A DNA stretch of 32,937 bases from an uncultured Planctomycetota bacterium (GTDB lineage Bacteria; Planctomycetota; Planctomycetia; Pirellulales; Thermoguttaceae), in assembly GCA_902772705.1 (NCBI GenBank), contig CACYBR010000047.1, positions 1-32,937 of the forward strand, given 5' to 3'. The notes below the pieces were generated by a model, which worked only from the letters and a program-made list of their open reading frames with translations, was not told where the DNA came from and made no database searches. Shown one piece after another: positions 1-8,476 of the stretch (the stretch's first letter is position 1; every line of letters starts with the position of its first letter). Both the position numbers and the translations under genes were made by a program.

Positions 1-714
1 AAAGTTCGTGGAAACAGACTGAATATCCTCGTGTTCGTCAAGCGCGTCGGTAAGCTTGAGCGCCTTACGAGCGACGTTAACGTCCGTAATCGTCAACTTA
101 TCACGAGCGATATACTCGATCTCGGCATGCTGGGTTGGAATACTTGCCTCGCTCAGAAAACGAAGAACGCCGTCAAAGGCTTCAGGAGCGCAGGAAAGAC
201 GGTAAACGTCCTCGTCTGTCTCAACGTCGTCCGCGCCGGCTTCGATCGCCAGATCCATCATTTCTTCTTCACCCTTGACGTCAGAAGGAACCTCGATAAT
301 TCCCTTTCTGTCAAAGTTCCAGGCAACACAACCAGACTGCCCCATTTTACCGCCGCAAACTTCAAAGATTTTGCGGATCTCCGGCGCCGTACGATTACGA
401 TTGTCGGTCAGACCGGCCGCCATGACGGCGACGCCTTCAGGGCCATAGCCTTCGTAGAGCACCTCTTCCAGTTCGACAGGATCAAGTTCGCCCGTGCCAC
501 GCTTAATGGCGCGCGTGATATTGTCTTTCGGGAGGCTGACGGCCTTAGCTTCGTCGATCGCGGCGCGAAGACGAATATTTTCATCAGGGTTGCCCCCGCC
601 CTGCTTAGCTGCGACGATAATCGCTTTCGCGAGCTTGCTCCACAGCTTGCCGCGTTTCGCGTCAACCAAAGCTTTTTTGTGTTTAATACCAGCCCAATGG
701 GAATGACCAGACAT
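1..714 (-). CDS. yebC: YebC/PmpR-family regulator, 3' end cut by window
   Basis: The reverse strand is open from an ATG at 714 to the window edge (238 codons), so only the last few residues and the stop are missing; the family is usually about 240-250 residues. The N-terminus MSGHSHWAGIKHKK is the hallmark of YebC/PmpR, followed by KRGKLWSKL and later TDNRNRTAPEIRKIFE. A clean AGGAGA lies just upstream of the ATG and fixes the start. Family members act in the cytoplasm, described either as DNA-binding regulators or as ribosome-associated factors that help at proline-rich stalls; the sequence alone does not tell which applies. A promoter-like pair sits directly upstream, suggesting its own short leader. 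The family call is secure, the exact role less so. Confidence 0.95.
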   Translation of the reverse strand, partial: MSGHSHWAGIKHKKALVDAKRGKLWSKLAKAIIVAAKQGGGNPDENIRLRAAIDEAKAVSLPKDNITRAIKRGTGELDPVELEEVLYEGYGPEGVAVMAAGLTDNRNRTAPEIRKIFEVCGGKMGQSGCVAWNFDRKGIIEVPSDVKGEEEMMDLAIEAGADDVETDEDVYRLSCAPEAFDGVLRFLSEASIPTQHAEIEYIARDKLTITDVNVARKALKLTDALDEHEDIQSVSTNF

Positions 715-737
715 TGATTCTCCTCGACAAAAAAATG

Positions 738-1033: not shown

Positions 1034-2698
1034 TTAACGCGGTTTCTTTTGTTGAATTTCCTTAAGCTTAGAAGCTTTCTGCGCGGAGTCTTTTGACTTC
1101 GCGCCTCTGGCGCTCTTGCCAGAATTAACGCCGGTTTCTTTGCCGGCTGTCGATTTAGGGCTCGAAGATGCGGTTCTTCCTCCCTGCTCGCCTCCCTTGC
1201 TGTGCAAATCAGGCGGTTCAGACGTCGCCACATTAGAAGTATCGGCGCTCGCACGTCGCTTCGAAGCGCCCGAAGGCTTTTCCGGAAGACCCTGAGAGAG
1301 ACGCTTAGAAGACGACTTCGACGTCTTTTCTTCCTTTGCCTTCTTCTGTTTTCCGGTCGTAACGGTTCTGGACGTGGACTCTGTTACGGCTATTTCCGCC
1401 GGACGACCCTTCCCACTCTTCTTCTGCGGCTTGTTTTCAGCTTCCGATTCGGAAGTTCCCTTGGTTTTCTTGCTCGGTCTGGAGGAACCAGAGGAATCGC
1501 CAAGCTCCGCTTGAACCACGAAGAGATCTTTCTCAACTGTTCCCACTTTAAACGGCTCGGATCCACTCTTGCTACGGGCAAGCCGCGAAGAACTGGAACT
1601 ACCGGTTCTCTTCTCTGACGCACGGTAGCTCGTTTCTCCGCCAGAGAGATCCGTCTCACTGACGCCCTGATTATCGTCGACGCTATCGGAATCCATTTCG
1701 AAATCGTCGGAGTCCTCGTCGAGATCTGAATCAGACGACGCGTCGTACATCTGGGACGGAGCGTCTTTACGGACGTCGTCCTTCTGCTTACGAGCGAGTT
1801 GACGTGCAATATCGACGGGGTCGTAATTCTTAGGAGCAACAAGAGGTTCAAAGCTACGCTTTGCGGAGTTCTTGTCAAACCCCTTGAGGAACTTCAGGAC
1901 GTCGTCCGCTTTGGCGTCGTCCATTAACTCCACGCCGAGTTCATGAAGTTGAATGAAGAAGTTCACAGTCTCAGTTTCGTTTAACACGTCTCCACCGTCG
2001 TCAAGAAATTCTTCGTCTCCAACAACTCGAACGAAACCAAGAAGGCGCAAAACTCGTAAAGCTCCCTCGCTTAAAGGCAAATTAACGCCGCCAAACGCAA
2101 AGAGCTTGACATAATCGTTCATGAAACGAGTCGAGTACGGAATGCCTGAAACAAAATCAAGCAACTCGGTCTCCCCCTTCTGACGGAGGCCTTCAAGATC
2201 AAAATCGTAGGTCTTATCAAAGATCCACTGAAGAAGCCGACGGAGACGTTCACCGGCGACTACAGCGCAGGGAATGTCTCCGATAACAGCCGCGATCTCG
2301 TTCGCTTTAGAGACGCGCACTTCGTTCCAGTCGACGAAATTATGCATAATCTCAAGGAAAGCGTGTCGAGCTTGCTCAAAGCTTCCATTTTCAAGAAAAA
2401 TCGCAAATACGAGATGGTCGATGATCGTTCTATCACGAGAAAGAACAGAGAGACCGCGACAGGCACGCCCCCCCAGATATTCCCGAAAAGCCTTGAATCC
2501 CTTTGAGGACTCCTTCTGCGCGCCGCCCTTGCTCCTCGTAGACTTCTTCTCACGCGCAGATTTCCCCTCCGCGTTTGCCCTGCCCTTGACGTCAGAGGAA
2601 GTCGCTTTGGAGACGCTTTTCTTAGTCTCAGGAGTTTTTCGCGCGGAAGACTTGGCGGCGTCGCCCTTTCGCGAATTATCTTTTGGACGTGAAGCCAT
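1034..2698 (-). CDS. Endonuclease III-like (HhH-GPD fold) protein, catalytically degenerate, with disordered tails
   Basis: A 554-residue protein in three parts. Residues 1-65 are Lys/Ser/Ala-rich and disordered. Residues about 66-300 form a globular, mostly helical domain. Residues 310-554 are a low-complexity tail, first acidic and then Lys/Ser-rich. The globular part resembles an endonuclease III-like family that I associate with planctomycetes: DHLVFAIFLENGSFEQARHA, the signature VDWNEVRVS (122-130), then GIPYSTRFMNDYVKLFAFGG (185-204) and EGALRVLRLLGF. Aligned by eye to Nth, the catalytic Lys of the helix-hairpin-helix (GVGRKTA) falls on Ser189, the catalytic Asp (VDTHIFRV) falls on Ser210, and there is no cysteine cluster for the iron-sulfur site. 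I infer a structural or DNA-binding role rather than glycosylase activity. It follows rbfA by 94 bases on the same strand and has no clear ribosome site. Confidence 0.6.
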   Translation of the reverse strand: MASRPKDNSRKGDAAKSSARKTPETKKSVSKATSSDVKGRANAEGKSAREKKSTRSKGGAQKESSKGFKAFREYLGGRACRGLSVLSRDRTIIDHLVFAIFLENGSFEQARHAFLEIMHNFVDWNEVRVSKANEIAAVIGDIPCAVVAGERLRRLLQWIFDKTYDFDLEGLRQKGETELLDFVSGIPYSTRFMNDYVKLFAFGGVNLPLSEGALRVLRLLGFVRVVGDEEFLDDGGDVLNETETVNFFIQLHELGVELMDDAKADDVLKFLKGFDKNSAKRSFEPLVAPKNYDPVDIARQLARKQKDDVRKDAPSQMYDASSDSDLDEDSDDFEMDSDSVDDNQGVSETDLSGGETSYRASEKRTGSSSSSRLARSKSGSEPFKVGTVEKDLFVVQAELGDSSGSSRPSKKTKGTSESEAENKPQKKSGKGRPAEIAVTESTSRTVTTGKQKKAKEEKTSKSSSKRLSQGLPEKPSGASKRRASADTSNVATSEPPDLHSKGGEQGGRTASSSPKSTAGKETGVNSGKSARGAKSKDSAQKASKLKEIQQKKPR

Positions 2699-2792: not shown

Positions 2793-3224
2793 TTATTCTT
2801 TCTCCTCCGAGGAGTCGCCCTCTTCGATATCTTCTTCTTCGAATTCGTCAATCTCAGCGGAGTTTTCCTGTTCCTCCCGGCTCTGAGCGTGTTCCTCGGA
2901 AAGGATGCGAGAAACTTCCATCAGGTTTTTGACGCCCTCGTCAACGGCAAACTGAAGCGTCGGCGTATAGCGTGAGTCAATCCTGCGAGCTACTTTCTGT
3001 TGCAAAAAGCCTGCGGCGCTCTGGAGTCCGCGCAGGGCGTTACGTTCTTTCCCTTCTCCCCCAAGAATCATAAAGTAGACCTTGGCCTGACGCATATCCG
3101 CAGTAACTTCGACTTTGGTAATCGTCGAACCCACGACCCGAGGATCTTTAAGATCGGTGAGGATCGACATAGCGACAACCTCGCGAATTGCTTCGGCAGC
3201 CTTTAACGTTCGTCTCGAAGCCAT
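2793..3224 (-). CDS. rbfA: Ribosome-binding factor A
   Basis: A 143-residue protein, slightly longer than usual. RbfA binds the 30S subunit near helix 1 of 16S rRNA and helps late maturation, especially in the cold. Evidence is the N-terminal basic helix MASRRTLKAAEAIREVV, then LTDLKDPRV, ITKVEVTADMRQAKVYF and the closing RYTPTLQFAVDEGVKNLMEV, all in canonical KH-like order. The last 27 residues are an acidic tail beyond the fold. The start is set at the ATG at 3224 because GAGGAG lies ten bases upstream; a TTG nine bases earlier would leave almost no spacer. Its position after infB is the common bacterial order nusA-infB-rbfA, though truB does not follow here. Confidence 0.95.
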   Translation of the reverse strand: MASRRTLKAAEAIREVVAMSILTDLKDPRVVGSTITKVEVTADMRQAKVYFMILGGEGKERNALRGLQSAAGFLQQKVARRIDSRYTPTLQFAVDEGVKNLMEVSRILSEEHAQSREEQENSAEIDEFEEEDIEEGDSSEEKE

Positions 3225-3315
3225 CAAGCCCAAGCTCCTCTATATAAAGACGAATGCAACGCATAAACCACGCGCTGGAATTCTATCCACAAATCTATTC
3301 GTTGTAAAGAAGAGT

Positions 3316-3369: not shown

Positions 3370-6300
3370 TCAGAAGGTTCTGGCCACCTCCTCGATCTTG
3401 TAGGCCTCCAGAACGTCTCCTTCCTTAACGTCGTTGTAATTCTTGAGCTTCATGCCGCACTCATAACCTTCGCGTACTTCCTTGGCGTCGTCCTTTTCAC
3501 GCTTGAGCGTTTCAAGCTTATATTCGCCAATAATACGGCTGTCACGAATGACACGAATCTGGCAGTCACGCTCAATCATGCCGTAAAGAACGCGGCAACC
3601 GGCGATAACGCCGACATGACTGATGTTGAACGTGCGCTGAACAAGAGCGCGTCCAAGTTCTTTGACCTGCTCGACGGGTTTGAGCATGCCTTCCAACGCG
3701 GCGCGGATATCTTCGGTGAGCTTATAGATGACGTCGTAACGACGAATCTGGACTTTTTTCGCCTCAGCAAGCGCGCGCGCGCCTTCGTCAGGAACAACGT
3801 TAAACCCGACGATGACCGCGTCGGAAGCGTCGGCAAGATGAACGTCCGCTTCCGTGACGCCGCCTACCGAGGCCTGAAGAATCTTGACTTTGACCTCAGG
3901 ATGCTCAAGCTTACCAAGTTCCTTTCGAATTGCTTCGATAGAACCGCGCACGTCGGCGCGAATAATGACGTTAAGGGTCTGCTGCGTCTTCGCGGAATTG
4001 ATACGCTCAAAAAGGCTCTCGAGCGTGACGTGAGAAGGAGCGCCGGCGAGTTCAACCTCATGGGCGCGCTTCGCACGCTCTTCCGCAATCTGACGCGCGA
4101 CGGCGACGTCGTCGAGCACGACGAATCGACTGCCGGCGTCAGGCGCAACGTCAAGACCCGTCATAGAAACAGGAACGCCCGGCCCGGCCTCCTTAATACG
4201 CTTTTGCTTGTTAAGCGTGTCGTTCATTGAGCGAACGCGTCCGTAAGAAGAACCGCAGAGGACCACGTCGCCGGGACGAAGCGTACCCTTCTGAACAAGC
4301 GCCGTGCAAACGACGCCTTCGCCCGACTTCAACGAAGCCTCCAAAACGACGCCCATCGCCGCGCGATTGGGGTTAGCCTTAAGCTCATGAAGTTCAGCGA
4401 CCATAAGCAACGTTTCGAGGAGCGTGTCGACTCCCATGCCGGTAACGGCGCTCGTTTCAACGATTTCCACGTCGCCGCCCCATTCGCTTGGCATCAGGTC
4501 GTTAGAGGCGAGCTCTTGGATCACCTTGTCGCGATTGACGCCAGGAAGATCCATCTTGTTCAGCGCCACGACGATTGGAACTCCAGCCGCCTTAGCATGG
4601 CTGATCGCTTCTTCCGTCTGCGGCATGACGCCGTCGTCGGCGGCAACGACAAGAACAGCAACGTCGGTAACGTTTGCGCCACGCGCGCGCATTTCGGTGA
4701 AAGCCTCGTGACCTGGAGTGTCGACAAACGTAACAGGACCACCGGGCGTCTCGACACGATACGCGCGAATGTGCTGCGTAATACCTCCCTTTTCTCCCTG
4801 AACGACATGCAGGTGGAGAATACGGTCAAGCAACGACGTCTTACCATGATCAACGTGACCAAGGAAGGTGACGACAGGCGCGCGAGGCACAAGCGTCTCA
4901 GGCGGGTCGACAAAGTCATACGCCGTATCTACGTAAAGTTCCTCAAGCGTCGCTTCCTGTTTAATGGTCGCCTTAAGTTCAAACGCGACGATGAGCAGTT
5001 CCAGCGTTTCTGTCTCGAGCGGTTGATTCACATTCAACATGTACCCGAGTTCCATCAGTTTTTTGATAACAACGGGGACCGAAAGCCCTGTCGTTTCGGC
5101 AAACTGCCTCGCAGAACATGGGGTTTCAATCACAACGTCGTTCTTACGCGGCATAGTGCTGCCTCCGGAAGAAGAGCTCTTATCACGACGAGCAGAACGG
5201 CCGCCGGATCGCGTGGAATAACGGAAATCAAAGGACTCGTCTTCGCCGTTGCGCAGGCGTCTCGATTCGTTGCCCTGACGACGACGGGAAGCGCCGCGCA
5301 CGTCCTCACGTCCCTCGACTTCGTCCCGATCCTTGCCGCCCTTCTTGGAACGACGACCGTTTCCAAATTCAGAGGAGCCTCCCTGAGTAGCGCCGAATCC
5401 AGAATCGCCACCACGCGGCGAAAAACCAGAACGCTGAAAACGGTCGCCGGAAACGCCGCCGTCTTGAGTGGAACGACCGCCTGATTTACGACCCAACGTT
5501 CCCGTCAGCGGGCCGGAAGGACCGCCTTCTTTTTGAGCGCGCAGCTTCCGTGCAAGGGGTCCGAGATTGCCGCTTGCCGCCGCGCGAAGGGCTTCTGGAG
5601 GAAGACGTTTTTCAGGCTTCTGAGCAACCGGTTCCTTGACCGCCTTCTTTATGGGACGGACAGGCTCGGCGGGCATCGGAGCGAGGTGGAGATTAAGATT
5701 CGTCTTCGGAGAATTATTACGAGCGGAAGAACCACTCTGAGAGGTGGAAGACTCCGACTTTGGCTTGGGGGTAGACGCGCCCAGAACACGGACTCTATCG
5801 TTTGGCTGAGTCGTGATCATAGGAGGCCGCTTCATTTCATCGAGAATCTGCGCCCTCGACTCAAGTTGCGCGATAAACGAGGAAGCAACGGGCGCGGGAC
5901 GCATGGGATGGACGTCAGGTTGACGAGCATTCCGCCGGGAGTCTCTGTCCCTGATTCCCCTGTCCTTGTCTTTTTCGCGCTCGCGACCACGACGCTGACC
6001 GTCCCGGCCATTACGGTTGTCCAAAGCCTGACGCAAAGGAGCCTTACGAAGAGGCGTCGCAGGATGTTGCTCCTTTTTCTCCACTTTCTCAGCGGCTTCT
6101 TCCTTCGAGGGCGTTTCAGCCGCCGTAGCGACAGTCGGCTCAGAGACAGTCGGCTCAGCGACAGTCGGCTCAGCGACAGTCGTCTCAGCTTCGGTTTTGT
6201 GGTCCGATACAACTTCGGTCGGAGCAGGCGTTTCTTCGTTAATCTTGGTTTCAACCGCAACCGTGTCTTTGACGGGAGTCTCTTCCTTCACTTCCGCCTC

Positions 6301-6867
6301 AGCTTCAGGAAGGACAGCTGGCGAAGGACGATCGTTTCTCTCGTCGCTCTCTTCCTTACCTGACGTCTGAACCGTTTCGTCAACCGAAACCTTCACGGGA
6401 ACAGCCGTTTCCACGGTCTCCGCAACAGGCGGCGCCTCAATGGGCTTGACATCAGAAACCTCTGAAGGAACAGAATCGTCAACCTTGGAAGTTTCTTTAA
6501 CCGGAATCGCGGCAGAGACTGCTCGTTTATTGGGATCAACTTCAGTGATGCGTCCTCTCGCGGGTTGGATACGACGCATCTTGCCAGAAGTGGAATGTGT
6601 TGGCTTCGGCGGTTCAAGGGGCGCCGCCAGATCTGCTTCCATCAGGTTACGGAACGAAGGCTTCTTGACGGGAGTCTCATTGGCAAAATATTCTTTAATC
6701 CGCTCAACGTCTTCATCAGAAAGAGTAGAAAGAGCGACGAGGCCTCCCTCGGAGCCCGTCTTGGCATTCTTATTTTTACTCTTTATACCAAGTTTATTAC
6801 AGACGCCGATAATAACATTATTATCTTTTTGGAGCTGTTTTGCCAGACTGTAAACTCGAATCGACAA
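3370..6867 (-). CDS. infB: Translation initiation factor IF-2
   Basis: A 1165-residue GTPase that places initiator fMet-tRNA on the 30S subunit and promotes subunit joining. The N-terminal domain (1-62) begins [16 protein letters not shown]. Residues 63-575 are a very long, charged and Pro/Gly/Arg-rich linker, which makes the protein longer than the 890 residues in E. coli. An IF2_N-like segment (about 580-635) precedes the G domain. GTPase motifs are intact: GHVDHGKT (670-677), VDTPGH (715-720), NKMD (770-773) and SAV (806-808). Domains II, III and IV follow to the C-terminus. The start codon is TTG: an in-frame TAA lies one codon upstream and no ATG occurs before residue 77. The ribosome site is a weak GAGAG. 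The linker contains a short tandem repeat (6130-6189). Confidence 0.97.
6130..6189. repeat. Four tandem 15-bp units inside infB
   Basis: The unit gacagtcggctcagc occurs four times head to tail at 6130, 6145, 6160 and 6175. The first copy ends in a and the fourth has gtc-gtc in place of gtc-ggc. It encodes a repeated Thr-Val-Ala/Ser-Glu-Pro motif in the disordered linker of IF-2, in frame with five-residue periodicity. Confidence 0.9.
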
Positions 6868-7162: not shown

Positions 7163-8476
7163 TCAAAGATCTTCTCCCGCGTCAAATTTACGCGGCCCGC
7201 GAAGATCGTTCTGACGGCGACCCCCTGCGCCCCGAAGTTCTTCCAGAGATCGATTATGCAACTCCTCCTTACGACGTTCCTCGGCCTCTTTTTCCTGCTC
7301 CTCTGCAAGTTGTTCAGCCTTCTCCAAAATTGAAGTCGTTAACTCCTGCGTAGCGCCTGTGATTTCCATGAAATCCTCGGGTTCAATGCAGGAAAGGTCG
7401 TAATAGGAGGTGAAACCTTCTCCTACAAGGATATCAGCAATCTCCGGCGTGAGACCCTCGATCTTACCAAATTCGACCGTCGCCCTGTCGAGCATCTCTG
7501 CGAGTTCATCCTGACCATTATCATCGTGGGTCAAGATTTCGAGTTCCCAACCGCCAAGAAGTTTCTTTGCGAGATTCACGTTCTGACCACGTTTACCAAT
7601 CGCGAGGGAACGCTGATCAGGATGAACCATCACGATGGCGCGGTCAAGCCTCGGACAAAGGATAACTTCGTCAACCTTTGCCGGAGAAAGCGCATTCTGA
7701 ATGAACTCAGACGTAGAATCGCTCCAAAGAACAACGTCAATGCGTTCGCCGTTAAGAGCCTTAGAAACTCTCATGGAACGAGAATTACGGACGCCCAAAC
7801 AAACGCCGAGCGGGTCCACGCGACTGTCGTTGGAACGAACGGCGATCTTAGCTCGAAAACCAGGATCGCGACTTATTTCAACGATCTCAACTGTGCCGTC
7901 GGTAATTTCGGGACACTCGCGTTCAAAGAGACGCCGCAGAAGAAGCTTACTCTTTCGGCTGAGGACGATACGCGCCTTCATACCGGCCTTCTCTACGCTC
8001 TCGATCACGAAATCATAGACGTTCTCATTGCGGTAAATTTCACCGCGAATCTTATTGCTGTTAGGAAGCCACGCTTCCTGCTTGTCGTCTATGATCACAA
8101 CAACCCCGCCTCGCTCAACGCGACGAACGACGCCCGTGACCAGTTCCTGCTTGTTGTTGAGACGATCGACGTAACGGTTGTAGATGGAATCACGGACAGC
8201 TTCACGAATCTTTTGCGATATGCTCTGGCGAGCAGACTGCGCGCCGGCGCGTTCCGTAATCTCAGCCGTCGTAATTGGAACATTGTCGCGATATGCGAAA
8301 ATCTCGCCAGTTTGACGCTCGATAGAAATCTTGTACTCTGAATCGTCGGAGCCGCTTCCATGGCGTTTCGCAGCCGTCATCAGCGCTTCTTCGATGCACT
8401 GGAAAACAGTTTCCTTATCGATCCCCTTCTCGAGGTAGATCTGTTCTACAAGCCTTTTAATTTCGTCAGGATTCAT
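7163..8476 (-). CDS. nusA: Transcription termination/antitermination factor NusA
   Basis: A 437-residue RNA-polymerase-associated factor affecting pausing, termination and antitermination. The N-terminal polymerase-binding domain spans about 1-105. An S1 domain (about 110-175) contains GVVRRVERGGVVVII. Two KH domains follow, with DPGFRAKIAV (204-213) before KH1 and GKRGQNVNLAKKLLGGWELE (294-313) in KH2. A helix-hairpin-helix-like segment (340-390) and a charged C-terminal coil end the protein. The KH1 loop reads GVRN (228-231) where the usual motif is GxRG, so the GXXG RNA-contact loop is altered. The ATG at 8476 starts the conserved N-terminus; the ribosome site is weak. No rimP lies upstream in this window. 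Confidence 0.96.
   Translation of the reverse strand: MNPDEIKRLVEQIYLEKGIDKETVFQCIEEALMTAAKRHGSGSDDSEYKISIERQTGEIFAYRDNVPITTAEITERAGAQSARQSISQKIREAVRDSIYNRYVDRLNNKQELVTGVVRRVERGGVVVIIDDKQEAWLPNSNKIRGEIYRNENVYDFVIESVEKAGMKARIVLSRKSKLLLRRLFERECPEITDGTVEIVEISRDPGFRAKIAVRSNDSRVDPLGVCLGVRNSRSMRVSKALNGERIDVVLWSDSTSEFIQNALSPAKVDEVILCPRLDRAIVMVHPDQRSLAIGKRGQNVNLAKKLLGGWELEILTHDDNGQDELAEMLDRATVEFGKIEGLTPEIADILVGEGFTSYYDLSCIEPEDFMEITGATQELTTSILEKAEQLAEEQEKEAEERRKEELHNRSLEELRGAGGRRQNDLRGPRKFDAGEDL

Follow-up and report, generated by a model that had tools for sequence, protein, structure and literature searches.

The question raised by this locus is what keeps a gene whose product has the fold of a DNA repair glycosylase and has lost the residues of glycosylase chemistry. 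The gene, here called X, lies in a window of 32,937 nucleotides (the whole stretch of DNA that was analysed) from an uncultured member of the Planctomycetota. An earlier note on this DNA had suggested that X is a retired glycosylase reused for DNA or nucleoid binding. The features of the locus are as follows.

1..717, minus strand: yebC, directly downstream of X and truncated by the window end
1034..2698, minus strand: coding sequence of the pseudo-glycosylase X, ATG start, 554 amino acids plus stop
1037..1588, minus strand: basic Lys/Ser-rich C-terminal tail of X, residues 371-554, ending KKPR, net charge +21
1589..1843, minus strand: acidic stretch of X, residues 286-370, net charge -12
1844..2500, minus strand: core of X with the HhH-GPD (endonuclease III) fold, residues 67-285, net charge -10
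2069..2071, minus strand: Ser210, at the catalytic-Asp position in two alignments
2123..2125, minus strand: Phe192, at the catalytic-Lys position in two alignments
2312..2332, minus strand: D-W-N-E-V-R-V, residues 123-129, with N125 and R128 invariant in 134/134 rows not picked by the motif
2501..2698, minus strand: Lys/Ser-rich N-terminal tail of X, residues 1-66, net charge +13
2793..3233, minus strand: rbfA, directly upstream of X with a 94-nt gap
3370..6867, minus strand: infB (translation initiation factor IF-2)
7163..8476, minus strand: nusA

Reading frame, family and fold of X

The open reading frame was found to be real, as were the long tails said to flank the core, Lys/Ser-rich at the N-terminus and acidic and then basic towards the C-terminus. 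An annotation artefact or a decaying gene was ruled out, as X was kept as a single-copy gene in 39 of the 40 genomes searched (the genome of the window included) and its omega values were well below 1. In-frame stop codons were present in five of 39 genome matches (L005, L008, L009, L010 and L013), in each of which the frame was open through the core and closed in the tail region; we read these stops as probable overruns of the alignments past shorter tails. A domain fusion was also rejected, as Pfam gave no credible second domain in 10 X members, some of them with long frames. No relative of X was found in viral contigs, and a scan for terminators and promoters gave signals near the shuffled background.

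Of the 392 genomes sampled from the phylum, 306 had a match to X and 86 had none at E 1e-3. The 65 distant members considered below were drawn from the better-scoring of these 306 matches, and counts among them lean to well-matching members. The Planctomycetia set comprised 149 rows, nine of which were duplicates, leaving 140 distinct sequences. A tree of 92 rows was built with 20 chosen rows of the 149, and with the poorly aligned distant rows L112, L240, L104, L220 and L107 excluded. In this tree a branch with a support of 99 separated 80 X members from canonical Nth and the Lys-bearing DR2438-like proteins, and the four DR2438-like rows did not form a single clade. Judged from these sequences, X is one coherent family in Planctomycetota. 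Members bearing the Fe-S cysteines bridge it to known families, as in L100, which adjoins yebC and matched DR2438 at E 9.1e-15 and Nth at E 2.8e-9. Canonical HhH-GPD genes were also present in 39 of the 40 genomes, and most relatives of the window genome had at least two HhH-GPD genes. In the genome of the window itself (G000, 84% complete), a MutY-like HhH-GPD gene (contig C300, L031) was found and no canonical Nth.

A family profile was needed to detect the homology. With the single window sequence, Pfam gave no match up to E 1, leaving the gathering cut-off of PF00730 unreached, and phmmer found nothing useful. The sole NCBIfam match was the monofunctional glycosylase DR2438 (NF053634; E 0.0032, 17.1 bits versus a cut-off of 400). 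When a 14-row profile of the core was compared with solved structures, D. radiodurans EndoIII-1 (E 4.5e-10) and ROS1 (E 4.5e-7) were matched. Comparison with Nth by profile alignment, a check proposed in the earlier note, found homology between the 149 Planctomycetia cores and 28 planctomycete Nth sequences (hhalign probability 95.5, E 4.7e-9). The AlphaFold2 model of X (pLDDT 91.9, pTM 0.88) had ROS1 as its best structural match (Z 16.3, rmsd 3.9 over 203), with further matches to DrEndoIII-3 (Z 15.9), DrEndoIII-1 (Z 15.0) and the EndoIII-DNA intermediate 1orn (Z 14.7). The call of an endonuclease III, or HhH-GPD, fold was thus right, with profile, hhalign and model superposition (Z 14-16) in agreement; X has both the two-domain helical fold and the detectable homology that define the superfamily.

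Among solved proteins the best sequence match was D. radiodurans EndoIII-1 (PDB 4unf, 8a5c, 8a5f), which we take to be DR2438, the namesake of NF053634. This protein resembles X in fold, in core length and in the DW of the corresponding segment, but has Lys, Asp, an Fe-S cluster and Arg61/Tyr100, whereas X has Phe, Ser, no cluster and Asn/Cys, together with long tails. The glycosylase domain of Arabidopsis ROS1 (7yhp), the top structural match, has a D-W-x-x-x-R segment in common with X; it retains the catalytic Lys and Asp, as seen in the alignment, whereas X is without both. ROS1 also has an Fe-S cluster and further domains, of which X has none. Canonical planctomycete Nth (PF00730) shares the fold, but carries the sequence LPGVGRKTA...VD and, by cysteine pattern, an Fe-S cluster in 27 of 28 cases, and lies at another genome location than X.

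Active site, iron-sulphur cluster and DNA-contacting residues

Ser had been proposed at both catalytic positions. This was correct for the Asp position (Ser210) and was ruled out for the Lys position, at which two independent alignments (HMMER against EndoIII and hhalign against Nth) gave Phe192. The Lys column of the 140 distinct Planctomycetia sequences held Phe in 136, Tyr in 3 and Ser in 1; in the 65 more distant relatives it varied among Phe, Tyr, Gly, Ala, His and further residues, with Lys in none. The catalytic Lys was therefore absent in all 205 distinct relatives of X across Planctomycetota. The Asp column held Asp in 119 of the 205 (90/140 in Planctomycetia, 29/65 in the distant members), and a tree of the 149 Planctomycetia rows, from which that column had been left out, implied 10 or more switches between Asp and a non-Asp residue. 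The absence of an Fe-S cysteine cluster was confirmed, as the whole protein has just two Cys (80 and 144). The Fe-S cysteine pattern was found in one of the 149 Planctomycetia rows and in 26 of the 65 distant members, a count which relies on cysteine spacing and overlooks at least L092, an evident case caught by a wider pattern. Eighteen of these 65 had the Fe-S pattern without Asp, and 21 had Asp without the pattern. As Lys, Asp and Fe-S were each missing among members, all three are dispensable for whatever keeps the X family. A distant subgroup (L216, L236, L238 and L250) had the Fe-S cysteines, Ala or Gly at the Lys position, Thr at the Asp position and long basic tails.

The DNA-intercalating positions were located in the alignment via the R61Q and Y100L variants of DrEndoIII-1, the intercalating roles of Arg61 and Tyr100 being those given in the available text of PMC9268735. 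In the window protein these positions are Asn104 and Cys144. The first was Asn or Asp in 140 of the 149 Planctomycetia rows and the second was Asp or Glu in 115. The second glycine of the HhH was replaced by Thr or Ser in 143 of the 149 rows and was Gly in none, and the LPGxG hairpin of Nth reads IPYST in the window protein. None of the marks of Nth (catalytic Lys, catalytic Asp, [4Fe-4S] cysteines, LPGxG hairpin) was found in this protein; the combination typical of MutY, Asp without Lys, was absent from it (Ser210) and present in many relatives. For this protein the description as a retired glycosylase held: Lys, Asp, Fe-S, the HhH glycines and the intercalating residues have all been replaced, under purifying selection that continues. 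The X family is very probably non-enzymatic, at least in the lineage of the window.

The retention of Asp in 119 of the 205 distinct members could suggest instead a family of monofunctional glycosylases akin to MutY or DR2438 that can do without Lys, with activity lost secondarily in the window lineage. The nearest curated family is indeed one of that kind, matched at E 9.1e-15 by the Fe-S-bearing L100 and at E 0.0032 by the window protein. However, the Asp changes counted above already number 10 or more within Planctomycetia, most Planctomycetia, those with Asp among them, have changes at the intercalating positions and in the HhH hairpin, and the NF053634 cut-off of 400 bits is missed by far, which makes this explanation improbable for the family. 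A MutY-like monofunctional activity may nevertheless be present in the Asp-bearing members, because Asp is kept in 90/140 and 29/65 sequences.

X might also be a DNA-damage sensor or repair accessory that binds lesions uncut and recruits factors, by analogy with Mag2 or DrEndoIII-3. Mag2 is catalytically silent, and its structure bound to damaged DNA (PDB 4hsb) was among the structure matches of X, at rank 47. DrEndoIII-3 (4uob, 8a5g), which has the fold in common with X, provides a precedent, as it has no detectable glycosylase activity yet binds damaged DNA tightly; it retains Lys, Asp and the Fe-S cluster (PMC9268735, in the part available), whereas the window protein is without all three. 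X mostly has N, D or E at the positions which stabilise a flipped-out lesion, and no conserved repair gene adjoined X in the eight loci with neighbours read; a sensor role is, on balance, the most doubtful of the explanations considered.

Conserved segment, tails and selection

The segment DWNEVRVS occurs at residues 123-130, as the earlier note stated, and is not the endonuclease III signature for which it was taken, as canonical Nth is without it and ROS1 shares only the DW and one R. Eighty named loci had been fetched via the DWNE pattern and were left out of counts of that motif. In the 134 rows not fetched by it, N125 and R128 were present without exception, D123 was present in 127, V129 in 126 and E126 in 116 (with Asp in 17 more). 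DxNExRV is the invariant segment of the X family. The core of X is under strong purifying selection, with omega (NG86) at 0.06-0.16 in the 11 pairs, out of 13, that had unsaturated dS, among them pairs in which Ser or Ala replaces the Asp. For the tail, omega was 0.13-0.31 in 12 of the 13 pairs.

Conservation of the tails across planctomycetes differed by tail, the basic C-terminal tail being widespread in the phylum and the N-terminal and acidic stretches local. The final 30 residues had a net charge of at least +4 in 187 of the 211 members counted (order 26/28, named loci 73/79, genus 12/18, class 22/22, phylum 54/64), and a KPR ending was frequent in the order (19/28) and in the named loci (72/80). 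Of the relatives, just the closest two, L002 and L003, had a comparable N-terminal extension, and the other members of the genus begin immediately before the core. An EPPD motif in the disordered tail was present in 12 of 19 genus members (L001-L007, L012, L016-L019) and absent from the other 130 Planctomycetia rows, and is a possible docking motif.

In line with the earlier note, X could be a nucleoid-associated DNA-binding protein, in which the dead core would be kept for its shape and an H1-like Lys-rich tail would coat or bridge DNA. HhH-GPD proteins bind DNA, and the C-terminal charge found in 187 of 211 members is consistent with this. However, the net charge of the core is -10 in the window and has a median of -1 in the 149 Planctomycetia rows, compared with +7 in the 28 canonical Nth, the HhH glycines and intercalating residues are lost, and the genes linked to X are translation genes. 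Nucleoid binding is therefore unlikely, and is a weaker rival than a role as an accessory of transcription or translation.

Gene neighbourhood and predicted role

The gene order in the window is nusA-infB-rbfA-X-yebC, on a single strand. In all 146 Planctomycetia loci with a contig reaching that far, rbfA preceded X; in the Planctomycetia genome loci, rbfA was found with X in 69/69 and infB in 68/69. Among the named loci rbfA was present in 77 of 80, and the three misses (L144, L205 and L206) have only about 200 bases (<250 nt) upstream. Every rbfA match was on the same strand as X, and in L101 the start of X overlaps the stop of rbfA as ATGA. For the distant members, infB, rbfA or yebC was found within 1.5 kb in 40/65 (46/65 when hisG was included) and none of the three in 25/65 (19/65 also without hisG), the limit being set by the 1.5 kb flanks of the control loci. 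In those controls, infB, rbfA or yebC was found near canonical Nth or MutY in 0 of 31 loci. The hisG gene itself lay within 1.5 kb of X in 23 of the 65 distant members (e.g. L101 and L103), including 6 of the 26 that bear the Fe-S pattern.

The conserved linkage nusA-infB-rbfA-X-yebC points to the transcription/translation machinery, and the basic tail suggests that X has some nucleic acid as its partner. Canonical use of DNA is disfavoured by the loss of the residues for lesion recognition and of a positive core. The explanation preferred here, tentatively and at a little short of even confidence, is that X is a non-enzymatic, basic-tailed, nucleic-acid-binding accessory of this machinery. 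X would be kept as a single-copy member of the infB-rbfA(-yebC) gene cluster, and its core would form a protein- or RNA-docking scaffold built round the DxNExRV patch. The disordered Lys-rich tail would lend a non-specific affinity for nucleic acid, most likely for rRNA or mRNA over damaged DNA, and X would act with NusA, IF2, RbfA and YebC, or be made together with them, in ribosome assembly or translation. YebC is described, in the accessible part of PMC12234827, as an rRNA-binding factor which aids the translation of proline-rich stretches. For the basic tail, DNA and RNA are equally plausible ligands. Against a role in translation, bacterial gene linkage can be historical, the N-terminal and acidic tails are without conservation, and 25 of the 65 distant members have no infB, rbfA or yebC within 1.5 kb. 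A more specific form of the preferred explanation, that Planctomycetota recruited a repair fold at an early stage for a non-enzymatic part in translation or ribosome assembly, with X encoded between rbfA and yebC and the DxNExRV patch and basic tail as its working part, is possible and is put forward with less confidence.

No paper combining 'planctomycet' and 'HhH-GPD' was found. Nothing on the X family was found in the available portions of the literature on planctomycete EndoIII, rbfA, nucleoid, gene order and histone H1, or of that on pseudoenzyme glycosylases. The main text of the P. limnophila essential-gene paper (PMC10632474), as far as it was available, makes no mention of infB, HhH, glycosylase or endonuclease III.

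X is a widespread single-copy planctomycete protein, encoded beside core translation genes and with a defined invariant patch. It clearly illustrates an entire enzyme family shedding its chemistry piecemeal while the fold and the gene neighbourhood persist. A fold from DNA repair seems to have been put to a new use that involves no catalysis; should X work on ribosomes, a DNA-glycosylase fold would be serving in protein synthesis.
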